This document shows positions 24,485-32,211 of a stretch of DNA of 64,000 nucleotides, in pieces. Numbering within the stretch: the first letter of the stretch is position 1; every line of letters starts with the position of its first letter. The translations under genes were made by a program, and so were the position numbers. The stretch comes from Halobacillus halophilus DSM 2266 (GTDB lineage Bacteria > Bacillota > Bacilli > Bacillales > Halobacillaceae): contig NC_017668.1 in assembly GCF_000284515.1 (NCBI RefSeq), positions 3,472,001-3,536,000 on the forward strand, read 5' to 3'. Below the pieces are notes generated by a model. That model had not been told where the DNA came from, did no database searches, and saw only the letters and a list, made by a program, of their open reading frames with translations.

Positions 24485-25309
24485 CTATTTCACAGCACCT
24501 TCAGAAACGCCATTGATGATTTGTTTCTGTGCGAAGAAGTATCCGATAATAACCGGAAGAATCGCAATCGTCAGCCCTGCCAGAGCTAAGTGCCATTGTT
24601 TCGTGTACTGCCCGAAGAAATAGAACATTTTAAGTGGAATGGTTGCATTTGCTTCACTTAGTACTAAAGAAGGCAGCAAGTAGTCATTCCAAATCCAGAT
24701 TGTGTTCAGAATCCCAACAGTCACGGATATAGGTTTTAACAGTGGGAAAATAATATACCAGAACAACTGGAAGCGGTTCGCCCCATCAATAATCGCGGCC
24801 TCATCCATAGATTTAGAAACACCCGTCATCGCCCCGTGATAAAGGAAGATCGACAAGCTGCAACCGAAACCAAGATACATGAAGATTAACCCGCCTGCAT
24901 TCAGCATGTCCGCTTGTCCAAATATAGACACGAGCGGAATCATAACAGACTGGAATGGGATAAGCATCGCAGCAACGAATATGAAGAAAATGAACCCGCT
25001 TAATTTACTTTTATTACGAGCAAGAGCATAGCCGGCCATGGAAGAAAACAGAATGATGATAGCTATACTGCATCCGGTGACAAGCACCGAATTAAACAAT
25101 GATTTAAGAAAAGCTAAGTCGACAAAGGCCTGTGCAAAGTTATCAAAGGCGAGTTCCGATGGGAAACCTAAAACCCCGCCGAAAATATCACGCTTTGTCT
25201 TAAAAGCATTGACGACCATTAAGTAGAAAGGAGCGATCCACAATAAACCAAGCAGAAGGCCGAGAATTTCAATGGAAAATAAATTGCGTTTTTCCTGATT
25301 CTTTTTCAT
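24485..25309 (-). CDS. Sugar ABC transporter permease, MalG type
   Basis: 274 aa, six membrane segments, EAA loop DEAAIIDGANRFQLFWYIIF near residues 165-185. The ATG overlaps the stop of the MalF-type gene by one base. Second membrane subunit of the LacI-controlled importer. Confidence 0.93.
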   Translation of the reverse strand: MKKNQEKRNLFSIEILGLLLGLLWIAPFYLMVVNAFKTKRDIFGGVLGFPSELAFDNFAQAFVDLAFLKSLFNSVLVTGCSIAIIILFSSMAGYALARNKSKLSGFIFFIFVAAMLIPFQSVMIPLVSIFGQADMLNAGGLIFMYLGFGCSLSIFLYHGAMTGVSKSMDEAAIIDGANRFQLFWYIIFPLLKPISVTVGILNTIWIWNDYLLPSLVLSEANATIPLKMFYFFGQYTKQWHLALAGLTIAILPVIIGYFFAQKQIINGVSEGAVK

Positions 25310-26169
25310 TACATCTCAACCTCCCGTTTCTTGTTGTAATACACTTGGGTTAATGCAACGACGGCCACAATTAAGAAGAAAATAACCGCCTTTGCCTGCG
25401 CATAGGCCATTTGATTGTCAGAGAACGCCGTACGGACAATTTCCATGGACACCATTTGTGTCGAGTTAAAAGGTCCGCCGTTCGTGAGTGACAAGTTCTG
25501 ATCATAAATCTTAAAGGACATAGACAGCGTTAAGAACATGCTGATCGTGAAAGCTGGAGCAACAAGCGGAAACGTAATGTTTTTGAATCGCTGGAAACTG
25601 CTCGCGCCATCGATTTTAGCCGCTTCGATTAAGTCTTTAGGAATGTTCTCAAGATAAGCAATGTAGATGATCATGATGTACCCGGCCATCTGCCAGGCTG
25701 TTAAAATGACCAGACCCCAGAAACCTGTATTTGTCGTGGATAGCCAGCCATTCAAACCTTCAATACCCGTTAAGTTTGCTATGTCGCCAAACACACTAAT
25801 GAAGATAAACTGCCAAATAAAACCTAGAATCAATCCACCAATCAGGTTCGGCATAAAGAATACGGTACGCAATAAATTATTGGACTTAATGTTACGTGTC
25901 ACAATCAAAGCCAGTGCCATTCCAAAAACATTGAGAAGAATAACCGTGACGACAGCAAATTTGATTGTAAACCAAATCGACTGCATGAACTCGTCTTCCT
26001 GGAACAAATTAATGTAGTTTTGGAATCCTAAGAATTCCGTAGCTGTAAGTCCATTCCAGTTTGTGAATGAATAAATAAAACCATAGATGAACGGAATAAC
26101 GACAACAATTCCCAACCCGAGGATCACGGGAGTTAAGAATAACCAAAAGGCAAGACTGCGGTTTTTCAT
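25309..26169 (-). CDS. Sugar ABC transporter permease, MalF type
   Basis: 286 aa from the ATG at 26169, which has GGAGGAGG 5 bases upstream; the in-frame TTG at 26184 lies in that ribosome site. Six membrane segments, EAA loop EAAKIDGASSFQRFKNITFP. First membrane subunit of the importer. No ATPase gene is in the operon, so it must share one encoded elsewhere. Confidence 0.93.
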   Translation of the reverse strand: MKNRSLAFWLFLTPVILGLGIVVVIPFIYGFIYSFTNWNGLTATEFLGFQNYINLFQEDEFMQSIWFTIKFAVVTVILLNVFGMALALIVTRNIKSNNLLRTVFFMPNLIGGLILGFIWQFIFISVFGDIANLTGIEGLNGWLSTTNTGFWGLVILTAWQMAGYIMIIYIAYLENIPKDLIEAAKIDGASSFQRFKNITFPLVAPAFTISMFLTLSMSFKIYDQNLSLTNGGPFNSTQMVSMEIVRTAFSDNQMAYAQAKAVIFFLIVAVVALTQVYYNKKREVEM

Positions 26170-26225
26170 GTAAACCTCCTCCAATACTTTACACGTGCAC
26201 TTTTATGTAAAAAGTCCGTGGTTTA

Positions 26226-26242
26226 TCGATATGATATCGATT
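26226..26242. promoter_or_regulatory. 17-bp perfect palindrome between importer genes
   Basis: ATCGATATGATATCGAT is symmetric about one G. It lies 57 bp upstream of the MalF-type start. It could be a protein-binding site or a small hairpin; nothing assigns it. Confidence 0.35.
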
Positions 26243-26263
26243 TCATAATCTGATAAAATAAAC

Positions 26264-26356
26264 ATCTCTCCTATTAGACTACCTATACGTCTAAATATCC
26301 TAATAGAGGAGATATTTATATGTACCGGCAGGATCGTATAGAAGCGATCCTGCCGG
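26264..26356 (-). terminator. Two intra-operon hairpins after the binding-protein gene
   Basis: A perfect 12-bp stem (26325-26336 / 26345-26356, CCGGCAGGATCG) lies just after the binding-protein stop; a second, imperfect stem pairs 26264-26277 with 26300-26313. The strong stem has no T-run on the minus strand, so it fits an mRNA-protecting stem or leaky stop that raises binding protein over permease. Confidence 0.7.
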
Positions 26357-26371
26357 CTGCTTAGTTAATGA

Positions 26372-27682
26372 CTACTGACGAGCATCTTCCCAGGCTTTCG
26401 TTGCCTGCTGTTCAACTTCTTCCCAAGTAATGTCACCTGCGATGTATTCCTGCATAGCTACACCAAGAGCATCTTCTGTCCAAGCTGTTGGAGCACCAAG
26501 GAAGACCCAGCCCAGTGTATTTCCTTCTTTCGCATAGTTATAGATTTCCTGAGAAATCGGATCCGCAATTTCCTGATCTTCATAACCTTCATATGCCGGA
26601 ATAAACTTGAATTCTTCTGTTACGAACTTCTTACCTGTTTCAGAAGTGTACATCCAGTCTAAGAAATCTTTACTTGCCTGCACGACTTCCTCTTCAGACT
26701 CTTTATTTACTACCCAGTAGTTAGGAACGCCAACTGGAATACTTCCTTCATATCCTTCTACAGGAATCGGAAGAAGTCCAACGTTGTTTTGAGCGAACTC
26801 TTCATCCATGGAGGCAATGGTGTTATACACCCAGTTCCCCTGTTGAATCATCGCTACATTCCCAAGTGAGAAATGCTCCTCAACCTGTTGAGAATAGTCA
26901 AGGCTTAAGGTTGGTTGAATAGAATTATCATTTTGCAAGTCTGTGAATTGCTTCATTTGGTCACCCATAGCGAATTCCACCGTCTCAGCTTCATAAGCTT
27001 CCATCACATCATGGTTGAACTCATCTGCAAGATAAGCATTAGCCAAGTGGTTACCCATTACCCATTTCTCTTTGGCAGGGAATGCAAATGGCGCTTCAAT
27101 ACCCAGCTCGTCCTTTTTACTTTCAAGAGTTTCTACTGCTGCTTCTAAATCATCCATTGTTTTAATATCATCTGGATTGATTCCTGCTTCTTCAAAAACT
27201 TTCTTGTTATATAGAAGGCCATAACCTTCCTGGTTGAATGGAAGTCCAAGCACCTGGTCATTCCGCTTAACACTTGACAGGGTACCTTCAAGAGCAGCAC
27301 CTGCAGCATCTGTATCAGATAAATCCGCTAAATATTTCTCATATTCATCTACATCTGTCGGACCGCCAACGTTAAAGATATCTGGTTCTTCACCTGAAGA
27401 GAAGGAAGTTTTCAGTGACGCACCATAATCGTTTCCTCCGCCAACCGTTTTAACATTAATATTCACGTCAGGATTTTCTTCTTCATACATGGAAACCAGT
27501 TCTTCAAACTGATCTTTAAATTCAACTTTAAATTGGAAAACATCCACCGTTACCGCATCTCCAGAAGCTTCCTCCCCTGAATCTCCACCGCTGTCGCCTG
27601 AGGAGAAGGAGCAGCCTGTTAATGCGATACTAGAAGCTAGAAGTGCAGTAGCAATACCCGAGTAAAATTTTATACCTTTCAT
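26372..27682 (-). CDS. Sugar ABC transporter substrate-binding lipoprotein
   Basis: 436 aa from the ATG at 27682 (GGGGTGG 4-5 bases upstream); the frame runs open to 27757 but has no ribosome site there. Lipoprotein signal with ALTGC lipobox, a Gly/Ser/Asp-rich linker, then a family-1 binding fold (TVDVFQFKVEFKDQFEELVS; DIFNVGGPTDVDEY). Head gene of the LacI-cluster operon. A cre-like site and two LacI-type operators lie upstream. Confidence 0.93.
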   Translation of the reverse strand: MKGIKFYSGIATALLASSIALTGCSFSSGDSGGDSGEEASGDAVTVDVFQFKVEFKDQFEELVSMYEEENPDVNINVKTVGGGNDYGASLKTSFSSGEEPDIFNVGGPTDVDEYEKYLADLSDTDAAGAALEGTLSSVKRNDQVLGLPFNQEGYGLLYNKKVFEEAGINPDDIKTMDDLEAAVETLESKKDELGIEAPFAFPAKEKWVMGNHLANAYLADEFNHDVMEAYEAETVEFAMGDQMKQFTDLQNDNSIQPTLSLDYSQQVEEHFSLGNVAMIQQGNWVYNTIASMDEEFAQNNVGLLPIPVEGYEGSIPVGVPNYWVVNKESEEEVVQASKDFLDWMYTSETGKKFVTEEFKFIPAYEGYEDQEIADPISQEIYNYAKEGNTLGWVFLGAPTAWTEDALGVAMQEYIAGDITWEEVEQQATKAWEDARQ

Positions 27683-27709
27683 TTTTCCACCCCTATTTTT
27701 CCGAATTAT

Positions 27710-27723
27710 TGAATCCGCTTTCA
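27710..27723. promoter_or_regulatory. cre-like (CcpA) site
   Basis: TGAATCCGCTTTCA differs from the consensus TGWNANCGNTNWCA at one position. It lies 28 bp upstream of the binding-protein start and overlaps the proposed promoter spacer. Confidence 0.5.
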
Positions 27724-27774
27724 ATACGTGACAAAAAAATAATTGACCTTGCCACACCCTAACTATGAGGAGCG

Positions 27775-27988: not shown

Positions 27989-28243
27989 TTTGACAAGCAC
28001 TTATGTGACTTAAACGAAAAAGAGGTTATTAACCTTGCATTCTACGAGGCTTAAAACCGCTTTTTTATAAAAGAGGTTTATGGCCAGGCTTAGTAACGAA
28101 CTCAGTCGAAAAATGATTTAGATCAATGAGATCGTCTATCTCTTGAATACTTATTTTTCGAAAGACTAAAACACCCATTGTAAATGATTCTAGCATCATG
28201 ATTTCAGGGTGGTTCTCATAAACTAAAACAGCGGGGTGAGCTT

Positions 28244-28669
28244 ATGAATAATAAGAACGGAAAATTAAACTGGAATGCTTTTTCTGAAAATGTTGAGAAA
28301 GTTCTGGGTGAAGATTTTTGGAACGATATGCACCATGTCATTCCGAAGAGAGGGCCTTCTTATGATTATTATGAGACTGAGAAAGAAGGCGTTATTATTG
28401 TAGATCTCCCCGGTTATCATTCCAATGATCCACTTCACTTATCCCAGGAGGGTACTCAATTAATTATTAAGGGGCAAATCTCCTATCCGTATCCGGTTCC
28501 TGAAGAAAGATTACTACACAGTGAAAGATTGAAGGGTGAATTCAAGCGAGTCATCCCCGTCCCCTTTCATTTCACGTATGAAGACGTGCAAACGTCCTAC
28601 AAAGACGGGGTTGTGCTTATCAAAATTACAAAGAACTCTTCGGCAAATGAAATAGAAATCCAGTTTTAA
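28244..28669 (+). CDS. Hsp20/alpha-crystallin-like protein (spore-coat CotM/CotP type)
   Basis: 141 aa. The C-terminal half has the alpha-crystallin core: VIIVDLPGYHSNDPLHLSQE, then GEFKRVIPVPFHFTYEDVQT and YKDGVVLIKITKN, the usual A-x-x-x-n-G-v-L strand pattern. GGGGTGAG precedes the ATG. CATAAACTA upstream (28217-28225) resembles the SigK -10 consensus CATAnnnTA but sits very near the ribosome site. It ends 4 bp inside the convergent Hsp20-like gene. The cluster context suggests a spore coat or inner coat role. Confidence 0.75.
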   Translation: MNNKNGKLNWNAFSENVEKVLGEDFWNDMHHVIPKRGPSYDYYETEKEGVIIVDLPGYHSNDPLHLSQEGTQLIIKGQISYPYPVPEERLLHSERLKGEFKRVIPVPFHFTYEDVQTSYKDGVVLIKITKNSSANEIEIQF

Positions 28670-29130
28670 TAAAAAACGTGGATTTCTTTTTCATAATCCT
28701 CTCTCTTTTTATGGAGACGTACTTCAATCATCCCATCGCTGTATTGAGCGGATATATTTCGCCGGCTGGGCTGTCCGGGCAAAGGAATCGTTTTTTTACC
28801 ATCCCCGATGCCTCCCACATATAATTTACAGTTACCAAGAGTAAGACGCAGTGCATCCATATCTGTTTCTTTGGGCAGTCGAATTTGAACAATATAATAA
28901 AGCATTAACTCTACTACCTCATAATCAAAACCTGTGTGTTCCTTGGGATCAGAGGTCGAATGAGGCGAATTAAACATATGCTGGGTTGGTTTAAGGGCAT
29001 CTTCAATCGATTGCTGCACATATTTATTGATATTTGCCATATCAAACATTGAATTTGAAAAAGGGAGTCCCGGCTTGCCGTCCTTTTGATCACGGTCCGA
29101 TTGATTGAACCACTTCATAAACTCTTTCAT
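28666..29130 (-). CDS. Diverged Hsp20-like protein
   Basis: 154 aa. An N-terminal helical part (MKEFMKWFNQSDRDQKDGKP) is followed by a degenerate alpha-crystallin domain: YYIVQIRLPKETDMDALRLT, KTIPLPGQPSRRNISAQYSD and GMIEVRLHKK. AAGGAT lies before the ATG. Convergent with the preceding gene with a 4-bp overlap and divergent from the small-paralogue genes. Confidence 0.65.
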   Translation of the reverse strand: MKEFMKWFNQSDRDQKDGKPGLPFSNSMFDMANINKYVQQSIEDALKPTQHMFNSPHSTSDPKEHTGFDYEVVELMLYYIVQIRLPKETDMDALRLTLGNCKLYVGGIGDGKKTIPLPGQPSRRNISAQYSDGMIEVRLHKKREDYEKEIHVFY

Positions 29131-29146
29131 GCTTACAAAATCCTTT

Positions 29147-29155
29147 CATACCTTA
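29147..29155 (+). promoter_or_regulatory. SigK-like -10 element
   Basis: CATACCTTA matches the SigK -10 consensus CATAnnnTA, 20 bp before the start of the first plus-strand paralogue. No clear -35 AC at the right distance, so this is suggestive only. Confidence 0.3.
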
Positions 29156-29174
29156 ATGACAGGAGGTGGATACT

Positions 29175-29375
29175 ATGACTCGTATATCTTTTCATAACCT
29201 CAACATTGATCAAGTCTCCAACTCTTCAGGAATTTACTCTGGTACGAATGTTCAGTCCAGGTTCTCTGCTTATCACCAGAAAAATGAAGGCAGCGGAATG
29301 ATTATAGGAAATAAAAATGTCCTGCAGCAGAACAGACATCTCATTATTAAAAAGCCAAATCCTCAGGGAGAGTAG
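29175..29375 (+). CDS. Small GerP-cluster-like protein, paralogue 1
   Basis: 66 aa from the ATG at 29175 with AGGAGG 8 bases upstream. Pattern: ISFHNLNIDQVSNSSGIYSG, then SAYHQKNEGSGMIIGNKNVL. The layout (I-x-[VI]-x-x-[VI] strand, SSGI..G.N.Q, [AS]-[YH]-x-K-N, G-x-G-x-[IV]-x-G-x-x-N) is shared with three more proteins of this cluster. Distantly reminiscent of GerPA/GerPF-type spore proteins; homology not proven. Confidence 0.7.
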   Translation: MTRISFHNLNIDQVSNSSGIYSGTNVQSRFSAYHQKNEGSGMIIGNKNVLQQNRHLIIKKPNPQGE

Positions 29376-29380
29376 CTGTC

Positions 29381-29701
29381 ATGTTTTTTGGCAGACGAAA
29401 CAAACCACCTCAAGATACCGAACATCTCTACAAAGAGATCTTAAAACTCCAGAAAGCCATATTGGAAAATCAGGGTAAAACTGTAGAGTACCATTTTCAT
29501 TTTGACAAAGTGGATATCCACGACCCTAAACTGGAGCAGTTAAGCTTTCAACTGGACCATCTAGATATCGAAGATTTAAGTGGGGCTTTAAATCTAGGCA
29601 ATAACTTTGGCGTTCATGTGAAACCATCTTACAAAGAAAAACCTAAATTGGAAAAAACAAAAGATGGTTTAAAATTTACATTCAAAGAAAAGGAGGAGTA
29701 A
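29381..29701 (+). CDS. GerPC-like protein
   Basis: 106 aa. An N-terminal coiled-coil region (DTEHLYKEILKLQKAILENQ) is followed by repeated beta-type segments VEYHFHFDKVDIHDPKLEQL and FQLDHLDIEDLSGALNLGNN. GerPC proteins have the same layout, a coiled coil then a segment ending in LEGTLNIG-like sequence. It sits between two members of the small-paralogue family with 5-bp and 1-bp gaps, as one operon. In Bacillus, GerP proteins make the spore coat permeable to germinants. Confidence 0.55.
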   Translation: MFFGRRNKPPQDTEHLYKEILKLQKAILENQGKTVEYHFHFDKVDIHDPKLEQLSFQLDHLDIEDLSGALNLGNNFGVHVKPSYKEKPKLEKTKDGLKFTFKEKEE

Positions 29702-29702
29702 C

Positions 29703-29999
29703 TTGAACTTTCTTTCTCCTAATTTCTTCATTCGCAATATTCATATTGGAACAGTAGAAGACGCTTCGTGTGTCAATCTCGGAAATAATGCCCCCAGCGG
29801 GTTTGAAAGCCACAAAAAACATAACCAGGGATTTGGCAATGTTTATGGTGACGGGAATTCTCTCAAAGGCTTGCGTTCGATCTTAAGTGATTCAGCGATT
29901 CTTGATATGATGGTGAACAGCAAAGATCAAGAAGTACCGGAATGGATTCAAACGATGGTAAAGAATGAGATGGAAAAGGATATTCACGCGTCCTCATAG
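29703..29999 (+). CDS. Small GerP-cluster-like protein, paralogue 2
   Basis: 98 aa, TTG start at 29703 with AAAGGAGGAG just upstream. The first 55 residues follow the family pattern (FFIRNIHIGTVEDASCVNLG; SHKKHNQGFGNVYGDGNSL); a C-terminal extension of about 40 residues is predicted helical (VPEWIQTMVKNEMEKDI). It overlaps the convergent paralogue 3 by 16 bp. Confidence 0.68.
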   Translation: MNFLSPNFFIRNIHIGTVEDASCVNLGNNAPSGFESHKKHNQGFGNVYGDGNSLKGLRSILSDSAILDMMVNSKDQEVPEWIQTMVKNEMEKDIHASS

Positions 30000-30232
30000 C
30001 CTTTTCCATGGGAATTCTTTATCGTTTCTTTTTTAATAGGCATATCCACCATATCTTCATCATGGATTACATTGATATTCTGGTGCACCACGTTACCGTT
30101 TCCAACAATGGTACCTAAAGCCGAATTTTCTTTTTTATGAGCAGACCAGTTGTTTTGACTATTAGGACCCACGAAAATTCCAGAACTCATTTTAATCTGA
30201 TTAACGTTAATGCAATCGAATTGTATCTCCAT
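29984..30232 (-). CDS. Small GerP-cluster-like protein, paralogue 3
   Basis: 82 aa. IQFDCINVNQIKMSSGIFVG, then SAHKKENSALGTIVGNGNVV and the tail VIHDEDMVDMPI. The tail resembles the D-x-D-x-x-D-x-P-I ending of GerPA/GerPF proteins. GGGGCTGG precedes the ATG. Second gene of a minus-strand group with paralogue 4. Confidence 0.7.
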   Translation of the reverse strand: MEIQFDCINVNQIKMSSGIFVGPNSQNNWSAHKKENSALGTIVGNGNVVHQNINVIHDEDMVDMPIKKETIKNSHGKGYEDA

Positions 30233-30244
30233 CGAACCAGCCCC

Positions 30245-30490
30245 TTAGTATTGAACGTTAGGCTGCGGGTTGTTAACAGTCGGGTTGTTAAGCGGCAGAT
30301 CTACAAAATCATTATCGAATACTGTATTCACGTTGTTGGTCGCAATCATGAACCCTACAGGGACGCCGGCAGCGTTATTGTTTTTTCCCTGCCAGGTCCA
30401 GTCGGGCTGATTGTTCTGCCCAGTGGAAATGGTCGAGTTATCATTAAGTGCATTAACTGCAATCTGGTTAAATACTACGGAAACAGGCAT
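30245..30490 (-). CDS. Small GerP-cluster-like protein, paralogue 4
   Basis: 81 aa. VVFNQIAVNALNDNSTISTG, then QGKNNNAAGVPVGFMIATNN and VFDNDFVDLPL. The D-N-D-F-V-D-L-P tail matches paralogue 3. GAGGTGAGGTG lies before the ATG. Gap of 12 bp to paralogue 3, so co-transcribed. Confidence 0.68.
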   Translation of the reverse strand: MPVSVVFNQIAVNALNDNSTISTGQNNQPDWTWQGKNNNAAGVPVGFMIATNNVNTVFDNDFVDLPLNNPTVNNPQPNVQY

Positions 30491-30550
30491 TTATTTCACC
30501 TCACCTCATTGTTAAAATATCCTATTCCAGGCCGCAGGGGAACGTGTCAG

Positions 30551-30751
30551 TCACCCAGGTGTTTGATTACCCCCAGCGGCTCCTTTCTCTCCTTTCCACC
30601 TATCCTCATAGCAATCTATACACAATTGGATATGGACTTTCCAATCGTCTTCCGGTATGACCAGGTCATCCTCACTTACTTCCCTTTGACAATTCCAGCA
30701 GATTTTATTTCTTCGATTTATGTCGCGGAGGAACTCGTCGAATCTCCCCAT
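30551..30751 (-). CDS. Small zinc-ribbon-like protein
   Basis: 66 aa. Two CxxC knuckles, CWNC (about 18-21) and CIDC (about 43-46), in a basic/acidic context (GRFDEFLRDINRRNKI; DDWKVHIQL). Likely binds one zinc ion. GGGGAG precedes the ATG. Probably first gene of the minus-strand group of the cluster. Confidence 0.6.
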   Translation of the reverse strand: MGRFDEFLRDINRRNKICWNCQREVSEDDLVIPEDDWKVHIQLCIDCYEDRWKGEKGAAGGNQTPG

Positions 30752-31881: not shown

Positions 31882-32211
31882 TTATTTACTTTGATGGATC
31901 TTCCATTTATTAAATTCCAGATATTCGCGAAATTGGTCTTTAGACACTCCTGAGTTCATTGCTTCATGAACGAGTTCCAGCCAGTCATCATCCAGCGTTT
32001 CATCTTTTGCATCTGATTCTCCATGGAGAAGAAAATTAATAGAGACATCCAATTCTTTTGATATTTTTTCTAAGAATTGAATCGATGGATTGGTCTGGAT
32101 ATTACGTTCAATGGAGCTCAGGTACGACTTTGCAACCCCAGCTCTCTCAGCTAATTCAGACAGCGACATATGACGGGCTTTGCGAATTTGTTTGATGCGT
32201 TCACCGATCAT
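31882..32211 (-). CDS. sinR: Biofilm/motility master regulator SinR
   Basis: 109 aa, very close to B. subtilis SinR. N-terminal HTH: MIGERIKQIRKARHMSLSEL then ERAGVAKSYLSSIERN and TNPSIQFLEKISKELDV. C-terminal tetramerisation/anti-repressor helices: WLELVHEAMNSGVSKDQFRE and YLEFNKWK. SinR represses matrix genes in Bacillus. No sinI is adjacent, unlike the B. subtilis sinIR pair, so the antagonist must lie elsewhere or be replaced. GTTCTAT upstream (32262-32268) resembles the SinR site GTTCTYT. Confidence 0.93.
   Translation of the reverse strand: MIGERIKQIRKARHMSLSELAERAGVAKSYLSSIERNIQTNPSIQFLEKISKELDVSINFLLHGESDAKDETLDDDWLELVHEAMNSGVSKDQFREYLEFNKWKIHQSK

Follow-up and report, generated by a model that had tools for sequence, protein, structure and literature searches.

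The 64,000-nucleotide stretch of the Halobacillus halophilus DSM 2266 chromosome considered here (the window) is part of the largest contig of a 4.17 Mb genome in three contigs. At positions 28244-30751 it carries a compact cluster of eight small open reading frames (ORFs), all of which were confirmed at the positions first noted for them. The cluster begins with two small heat-shock-like genes facing each other, Hsp20-like 1 on the plus strand (28244..28669, 141 amino acids (aa), Hsp20/alpha-crystallin family PF00011) and the divergent Hsp20-like 2 on the minus strand (28666..29130, 154 aa, PF00011 below cut-off). Three plus-strand genes follow: GerPA/GerPF-like paralogue 1 (29175..29375, 66 aa), a GerPC-like protein with an N-terminal coiled coil and a subsequent LDxLDIexLSGxLNLG segment (29381..29701, 106 aa), and paralogue 2 (29703..29999, 98 aa, TTG start). 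The minus strand then carries paralogue 3 (29984..30232, 82 aa, tail DEDMVDMP), paralogue 4 (30245..30490, 81 aa, tail DNDFVDLP) and a zinc-ribbon-like protein of the CxxC...CxxC type (30551..30751, 66 aa). The convergent overlaps given in the original prediction, 4 base pairs (bp) between the Hsp20-like genes and 16 bp between paralogues 2 and 3, are exact. It is a genuine cluster and a conserved variant of the GerP/coat type, an accessory beside the canonical gerP genes and without sign of phage origin.

A survey of conservation, proposed along with the original prediction, found the cluster complete or almost complete in 17 of 44 genomes of the family: the window's own and 16 others, 15 from the same genus and one from another genus of the family. 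Halobacillus alkaliphilus FP5 (96% identity) and H. halophilus AcN7-4 (94%) come closest among named relatives when judged by paralogue 2; paralogue 4 is 69-99% identical to 14 aligned relatives. The architecture is retained in detail. Paralogues 2 and 3 overlap by 16 bp in 15 of the 16 cluster-bearing relatives as well (by 4 bp in the remaining one), and the overlap of the Hsp20 pair measures 4, 7 or 14 bp in the 13 measurable relatives. The divergent gap that separates Hsp20-like 2 from paralogue 1 is 44 bp in the window and 43-44 bp in 12 of 13 relatives, the exception being L046 with 35 bp and another start codon. Ratios of nonsynonymous to synonymous changes (pN/pS), each calculated against up to three relatives, range from 0.04 to 0.64 over all eight ORFs, the highest value, 0.64, belonging to the zinc ribbon. 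This last gene is present, as predicted, and recurs in 14 of the 16 relatives, but it is an accessory at genus level: it occurs in 10 of 80 named loci, all Halobacillus (these are the best 80 of 178 loci chosen by paralogue 2, and all counts from them are conditional on that gene), and has no significant family in Pfam, NCBIfam or PHROGs. The zinc ribbon, being confined to the genus, was dropped from the conserved module, which comprises seven genes: two Hsp20-like, four for homologous small proteins and one for a coiled-coil protein.

The four small proteins are mutually homologous by profile comparison, which covered three pairs, each with paralogue 3: paralogue 1 matches it at E 7.5e-15, paralogue 4 at 5.8e-12 and paralogue 2 at 1.1e-11. 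The layout originally ascribed to all four thus stands as homology, but the literal SSGI is absent from paralogues 2 (ASCVN) and 4 (NSTIS). Similarly, the D-x-D-x-V-D-x-P tails, which had been likened to those of GerPA/GerPF, have the D-x-D-x-x-D spacing but not the final P in common with the GerPF tail of the same genome (DPDVNDQN). The profile-profile check against the GerP families bore out the GerPA/GerPF likeness with deep profiles, shallow ones being weak. A profile of 102 sequences (A9: 98 of 218 non-redundant small-paralogue ORFs, out of 286 distinct ones in the named loci, plus the four window paralogues) aligns with GerPF at E 1.5e-6 (prob 90) over residues 4-66, nearly the whole domain. 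When the individual members were scanned against Pfam at E 0.05, PF10676 was matched by 53 of the 102, the best at 9.4e-8, while just two further families, GerPB among them, had a single matching member each. Conversely, the PF10676 model finds matches above cut-off in 40 of the 44 family genomes and, in many of those with the cluster, detects cluster genes too, with E values of roughly 1e-3 to 0.1. The GerP likeness could in principle be an effect of composition shared by short Gly/Asn/Asp-rich proteins, and single-sequence scores under the cut-off and weak shallow profiles would be in line with it; this is very unlikely, as about half of the members select PF10676 from 24,736 families and almost nothing else, the alignment to GerPF is near full-length with the motifs in the same order, and the neighbouring gene has a GerPC likeness of its own. 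On the evidence of these profiles, the paralogues are homologous to GerPA/GerPF over most of the domain. Among the window proteins, Pfam gave no match to GerPB or GerPE. NCBIfam matched neither the small proteins nor their GerPC-like neighbour, and sequence searches for solved relatives of the paralogues and of this neighbour found none. Foldseek, run with a low-confidence model of paralogue 3, returned nothing from the PDB and two meaningless matches from the viral set (E 6.3 and 8.1).

The neighbour with the coiled coil had been said to look like GerPC, and profile comparison supports this: its profile matches GerPC at E 1.2e-6 over 26 columns, a second one at 1.2e-5 over 28. The match sits on the segment following the coiled coil, LDxLDIexLSGxLNLG, which is of the LxGxLxIG type. 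The protein is much shorter than GerPC (106 aa versus a 174-position model) and covers positions 25-50 of the 174 in PF10737, the C-terminal half of the family being unmatched. In a set of 52 GerPC-like members (A10: 51 of 54 non-redundant ORFs, from 61 found in the named loci, plus the window protein), 22 match PF10737 at E 0.05, the best at 2.6e-5; the next family, the coiled-coil HSBP1, is matched by six. A relative in locus L063 reaches 22.2 bits against the PF10737 cut-off of 22.4.

Of the two predicted Hsp20-like genes, the first is over the PF00011 cut-off of 20.8 bits (36.8 bits, E 4.3e-9), and the likeness of the second is real though it scores below (18 bits, E 0.0031). Hsp20-like 1 was found in all 16 cluster relatives; Hsp20-like 2 has a tblastn match in 14, L048 and L061 being without both it and the zinc ribbon. 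In L049 (6880-7199), Hsp20-like 2 is broken across two frames, reflecting either a dispensable gene or a sequencing error.

Upstream of the first Hsp20 gene lies a promoter-like element of the mother-cell type, CATGAT-N14-CATAAACTA (28197..28225, plus strand). Here, 16 of 17 distinct regions contain CATANNNT (shuffles: mean 1.24, maximum 5) and 6 of 17 the stricter CATANNNTA, the core of sigma-K promoters (mean 0.21, maximum 2). The divergent gap before paralogue 1 contains the -10-like CATACCTTA (29147..29155, plus strand), which fits CATANNNTA; in the direction of paralogue 1, CATANNNTA is found in 10 of 14 distinct regions (mean 0.29, maximum 3) and CATANNNT in 11 of 14. In its own direction, the second Hsp20 gene has CATANNNT in 8 of 14 regions (mean 1.51, maximum 6). 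The -35 parts were recognised by eye as CATGA about 14 bp before CATA, and sigma-E and sigma-K elements are not told apart by them. According to one study, the optimal spacing for sigma-K promoters is 15 plus or minus 1 bp, and gerPA and cotM belong to the sigma-K regulon (PMC517825). CATANNNTA also occurs in 46 of 271 leader regions taken from the more remote named loci (at most 66 of the 80), versus 9.8 in shuffles; the controls gave 7 on the reverse strand (10.3 expected) and 6 of 231 control genes (6.5 expected), the control genes being long ORFs found by pattern and the leader starts being profile starts. The conserved CATANNNT elements before Hsp20-like 1 and paralogue 1 suggest mother-cell promoters. 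Paralogue 4 has CATANNNT in 1 of 15 upstream regions and a different conserved element, AATAGGATA (30518..30526, minus strand), in 13 of 15 (shuffles: mean 0.02, maximum 1); about 16 bp further upstream, ACAC/CACA is seen by eye.

The distribution of the family was followed with SpoIVA, carried by 382 of the order's 397 genomes, as the marker of sporulation. At E 1e-3, a superfamily profile of 26 sequences (A8) finds matches in 143 of the 397 genomes and 64 of 135 genera, up to 14 in one genome; the 143 include genomes with one or two weak matches, and by hand count about 90 have at least three. All 143 are among the 382 SpoIVA-bearing genomes and none among the 15 SpoIVA-lacking ones (overlap checked by eye). 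At phylum level, A9 matches at E 1e-4 occur in 13 of 199 genomes; 11 of these lie outside the order, and SpoIVA is present in 10 of them, the eleventh being a genome of 72% completeness. Promoter-like elements and distribution, taken together, point to sporulation.

Related loci extend well beyond the genus and are spread across many genera of spore formers. Of the 80 named loci, 63 have an Hsp20-like gene nearby, 66 a GerPC-like gene and 61 both, and 68 have at least three small paralogues, paralogue 2 counted. All three gene classes occur together in loci of Cytobacillus, Paenibacillus, Alicyclobacillus, Neobacillus and Bacillus tequilensis, whereas eleven named loci, including Priestia and Metabacillus, share one alternative order with five small paralogues and neither an Hsp20-like nor a GerPC-like gene. 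The cluster is therefore no speciality of halophiles, and the combination is neither confined to halophilic Bacillaceae nor unique. A vegetative cluster against salt or heat stress, in which Hsp20s and client-binding small proteins cooperate with no link to the spore, might be suspected from the two Hsp20-like genes and from Halobacillus as the host; given the GerPA/F and GerPC homology, the promoter-like elements, the absence of matches from the SpoIVA-lacking genomes and the recurrence of such loci in Cytobacillus, Paenibacillus, Alicyclobacillus and Bacillus, which are mostly not halophilic, we regard it as improbable.

Within the family, 19 of the 44 genomes, the window's own included, contain a match to paralogue 3. 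Two of these (G018 and G034) lack the full cluster and have another arrangement; their loci L062 and L063 read GerPC-like (-), GerP-like (+), Hsp20 (-) and two GerP-like (+). In B. tequilensis, locus L207 has the order 156-aa ORF, second small paralogue, Hsp20 (3.2e-16), paralogue 1, GerPC-like, paralogue 2, the 156-aa ORF containing two PF10676-like stretches (27.1 bits versus a cut-off of 27.3). Its flanking genes are, we presume, yybH and yybO/ppaC of B. subtilis, and a lead is that L207 corresponds to the yybI-yybN region. In PMC3533761, yybI is listed as a coat gene.

A second, sporadic module consists of two GerPF-like genes, an Hsp20 gene and a coiled-coil gene. One such locus, L212, lies in a genome of the same genus (G020) and sets two full PF10676 members (1.1e-20 and 1e-18) beside a coiled-coil protein and an Hsp20 (3.9e-12). 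L214 (G034) and L215 (G027) contain relatives of each of the four genes; the L215 coiled-coil protein is 38% identical to that of L212 and is matched at 1e-4 by the cluster's GerPC-like profile. The juxtaposition of Hsp20 and GerP-family genes therefore recurs with unambiguous family members. In L213 (G006), just the GerPF-like pair was matched within 7 kb, one frame being flagged with a stop. The window's own genome has a further GerPC-like match (L216, G000:C1:2451876-2452238; 24.2 bits, E 7e-5) with three internal stops, perhaps a gene remnant; no match to genes of the L212-type module was found in the 4 kb around it.

The compact arrangement of small genes on both strands and their accessory distribution in the genus would also be compatible with a phage or mobile-element cassette. 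The sole significant match in PHROGs is, however, that of Hsp20-like 1 (phrog_432, 4.3e-7); the paralogues reach at best E 0.017 (paralogue 3) and 0.12 (paralogue 2), while paralogues 1 and 4 match nothing there. Searches of 50,697 phage and 72,556 plasmid records with paralogue 2, and of the same plasmid records with the GerPC-like protein, found no match, and 14 of the 16 relatives retain at least three of five tested flanking genes, L048 and L061 being the two without any of them. On the PHROGs, phage and plasmid searches, an origin from phage or plasmid was rejected, and we give it almost no credence; the placement in a phage family that the original prediction had named as its refutation did not appear, either in PHROGs or for paralogue 2 among phage records. 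The neighbourhood includes a SinR-type regulator beside the cluster (window 31882-32211; HTH_3 at 2.4e-17 and a SinI domain at 6.6e-15, both above Pfam cut-offs), which stays near the cluster in 14 of the 16 relatives, and, on the other side, a sugar ATP-binding cassette transporter (permease and binding protein, window 25309-27757), both genes of which are nearby in 13 of 16.

It is quite likely that the locus encodes a sporulation module of the GerP kind that is made by the mother cell together with Hsp20-like proteins, belongs to the spore coat and acts beside canonical gerP. From sequence, we infer the stage of expression, the location in the coat, the role in permeability and the scaffold and chaperone functions, which could be linked in the following manner: The mother cell would produce the four Gly/Asn-rich GerPA/GerPF-family proteins, the GerPC-like protein and the two Hsp20-like proteins from promoters of the sigma-E/sigma-K type, and the products would be incorporated into the spore coat. 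There, the GerPC-like protein may serve as a coiled-coil scaffold on which the small proteins oligomerise, whereas the Hsp20-like proteins may either hold the small subunits soluble or themselves become coat subunits, as CotM and CotP do. The finished product, beside canonical gerP, would let small molecules, germinants among them, cross the coat or would set its selectivity. Because of their homology to GerPA/GerPF, the paralogues are expected to be coat proteins of the GerP kind. GerP proteins are assigned to the inner coat, where they are believed to make channels for germinants (PMC11841064), and removal of the coat relieves gerP defects (PMC2817736).

A number of results weigh against this reading. 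None of the window proteins passes the Pfam cut-off of PF10676, the best being paralogue 3 with 15.3 bits versus 27.3 (E 0.024), and shallow profiles of single paralogues are weak or null against GerPF (E 0.003 to 0.35); the shallow profiles alone would be insufficient for homology, so deeper alignments were needed. The GerPC-like protein remains under the 22.4-bit cut-off of PF10737 (14.3 bits, E 0.043), and the coiled-coil protein of L212 has no PF10737 match, its GerPC-like segment being seen by eye. The predicted models of the GerPC-like protein and of the paralogue 3 monomer are of low confidence (predicted local distance difference test, pLDDT, 61.9 and 69.5, respectively), with no secondary structure reported for the latter; one may speculate that the protein needs to oligomerise in order to fold, which a monomer model of this kind would fit. 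CATANNNTA is missing upstream of the second Hsp20 gene (0/14), paralogue 4 (0/15) and the zinc ribbon (0/15), the last being without CATANNNT as well. Of the named loci, 17 have no Hsp20-like and 14 no GerPC-like match. The 15 SpoIVA-lacking genomes come from just six genera, which makes the distribution within the order supportive rather than decisive, and SpoIVA is also present in 16 of 19 tested phylum genomes without A9 matches, so that the phylum-level test does not discriminate. Finally, A8 has no match at E 1e-3 in 254 of the 397 order genomes, and within the genus 5 of the 22 genomes (G007, G013, G016, G019 and G022) are without a match to paralogue 3, although all 22 have canonical gerP genes; the cluster is therefore dispensable.

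The main rival to the role in permeability is a purely structural one: the proteins would build a fibrous or filling layer of the coat or the outermost layer, with the GerP likeness reflecting ancestry. The small paralogues are indeed expanded and shuffled, with as many as 14 matches in a single genome, their distribution within the genus is accessory, and cotM and cotP are listed as coat genes in PMC3533761. On the other hand, a GerPC-like partner accompanies the paralogues in 66 of the 80 named loci, as in gerP, and the extra GerPF-like genes described in PMC2817736 act in germination. We consider the structural role a serious possibility, though with less than an even chance; it shares the coat part with the permeability reading, so that the probabilities of the two overlap. 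As far as the sequences tell, the locus is probably an expanded, diverged coat module of GerP and small heat-shock proteins that affects permeability.

Among known systems, the closest is the gerPABCDEF operon, located in the same genome at G000:C1:1276125-1278031. Like it, the cluster combines several GerPA/GerPF-family proteins with one coiled-coil protein of the GerPC type and has promoter-like elements of the mother-cell type; unlike it, the cluster is not a set of six genes in one operon but a separate, coexisting locus with four diverged paralogues on both strands and two Hsp20-like genes. With the module of L212, L214 and L215 it shares the side-by-side arrangement of Hsp20, GerP-family and coiled-coil genes, but its small proteins are twice as many and diverged, those of L212 being full PF10676 members. 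The cotP-ydgA-ydgB neighbourhood of B. subtilis is presumably a module of the L212 kind; the literature search found no paper naming these three genes together. CotM and CotP are small heat-shock-like coat proteins, and the Hsp20-like proteins of the cluster resemble them by membership in the Hsp20/alpha-crystallin family, the second one being below the Pfam cut-off. A further parallel is provided by gerPF-like genes outside the operon, which are partly redundant with gerPF: the gerPF defect becomes visible only once they are removed as well (PMC2817736), and the cluster likewise adds GerPF-family genes beside the operon; Hsp20 has no occurrence in that text, and GerPC-like partners do not appear in its available passages. 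Among the titles and beginnings of abstracts listed in literature searches, which covered few subscription journals, none named such a cluster.

How germinants pass the spore coat is an old question, and to our knowledge GerP is the only system dedicated to it. Widespread extra GerP-like genes tied to small heat-shock genes provide a natural series of variants, and the redundancy they bring could explain masked gerP phenotypes; the Hsp20-like and GerPC-like proteins are testable partners for the assembly of GerP proteins. A tentative and rather less likely extension is that spore-forming Bacillales possess a second, parallel kit for coat permeability beside gerP, in which Hsp20-like proteins, a GerPC-like scaffold and variable GerP-like subunits are co-assembled via the small heat-shock proteins and tuned for each species. 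If so, the number and type of the subunits would set what the spore admits, for example germinants at high salt in halophiles.

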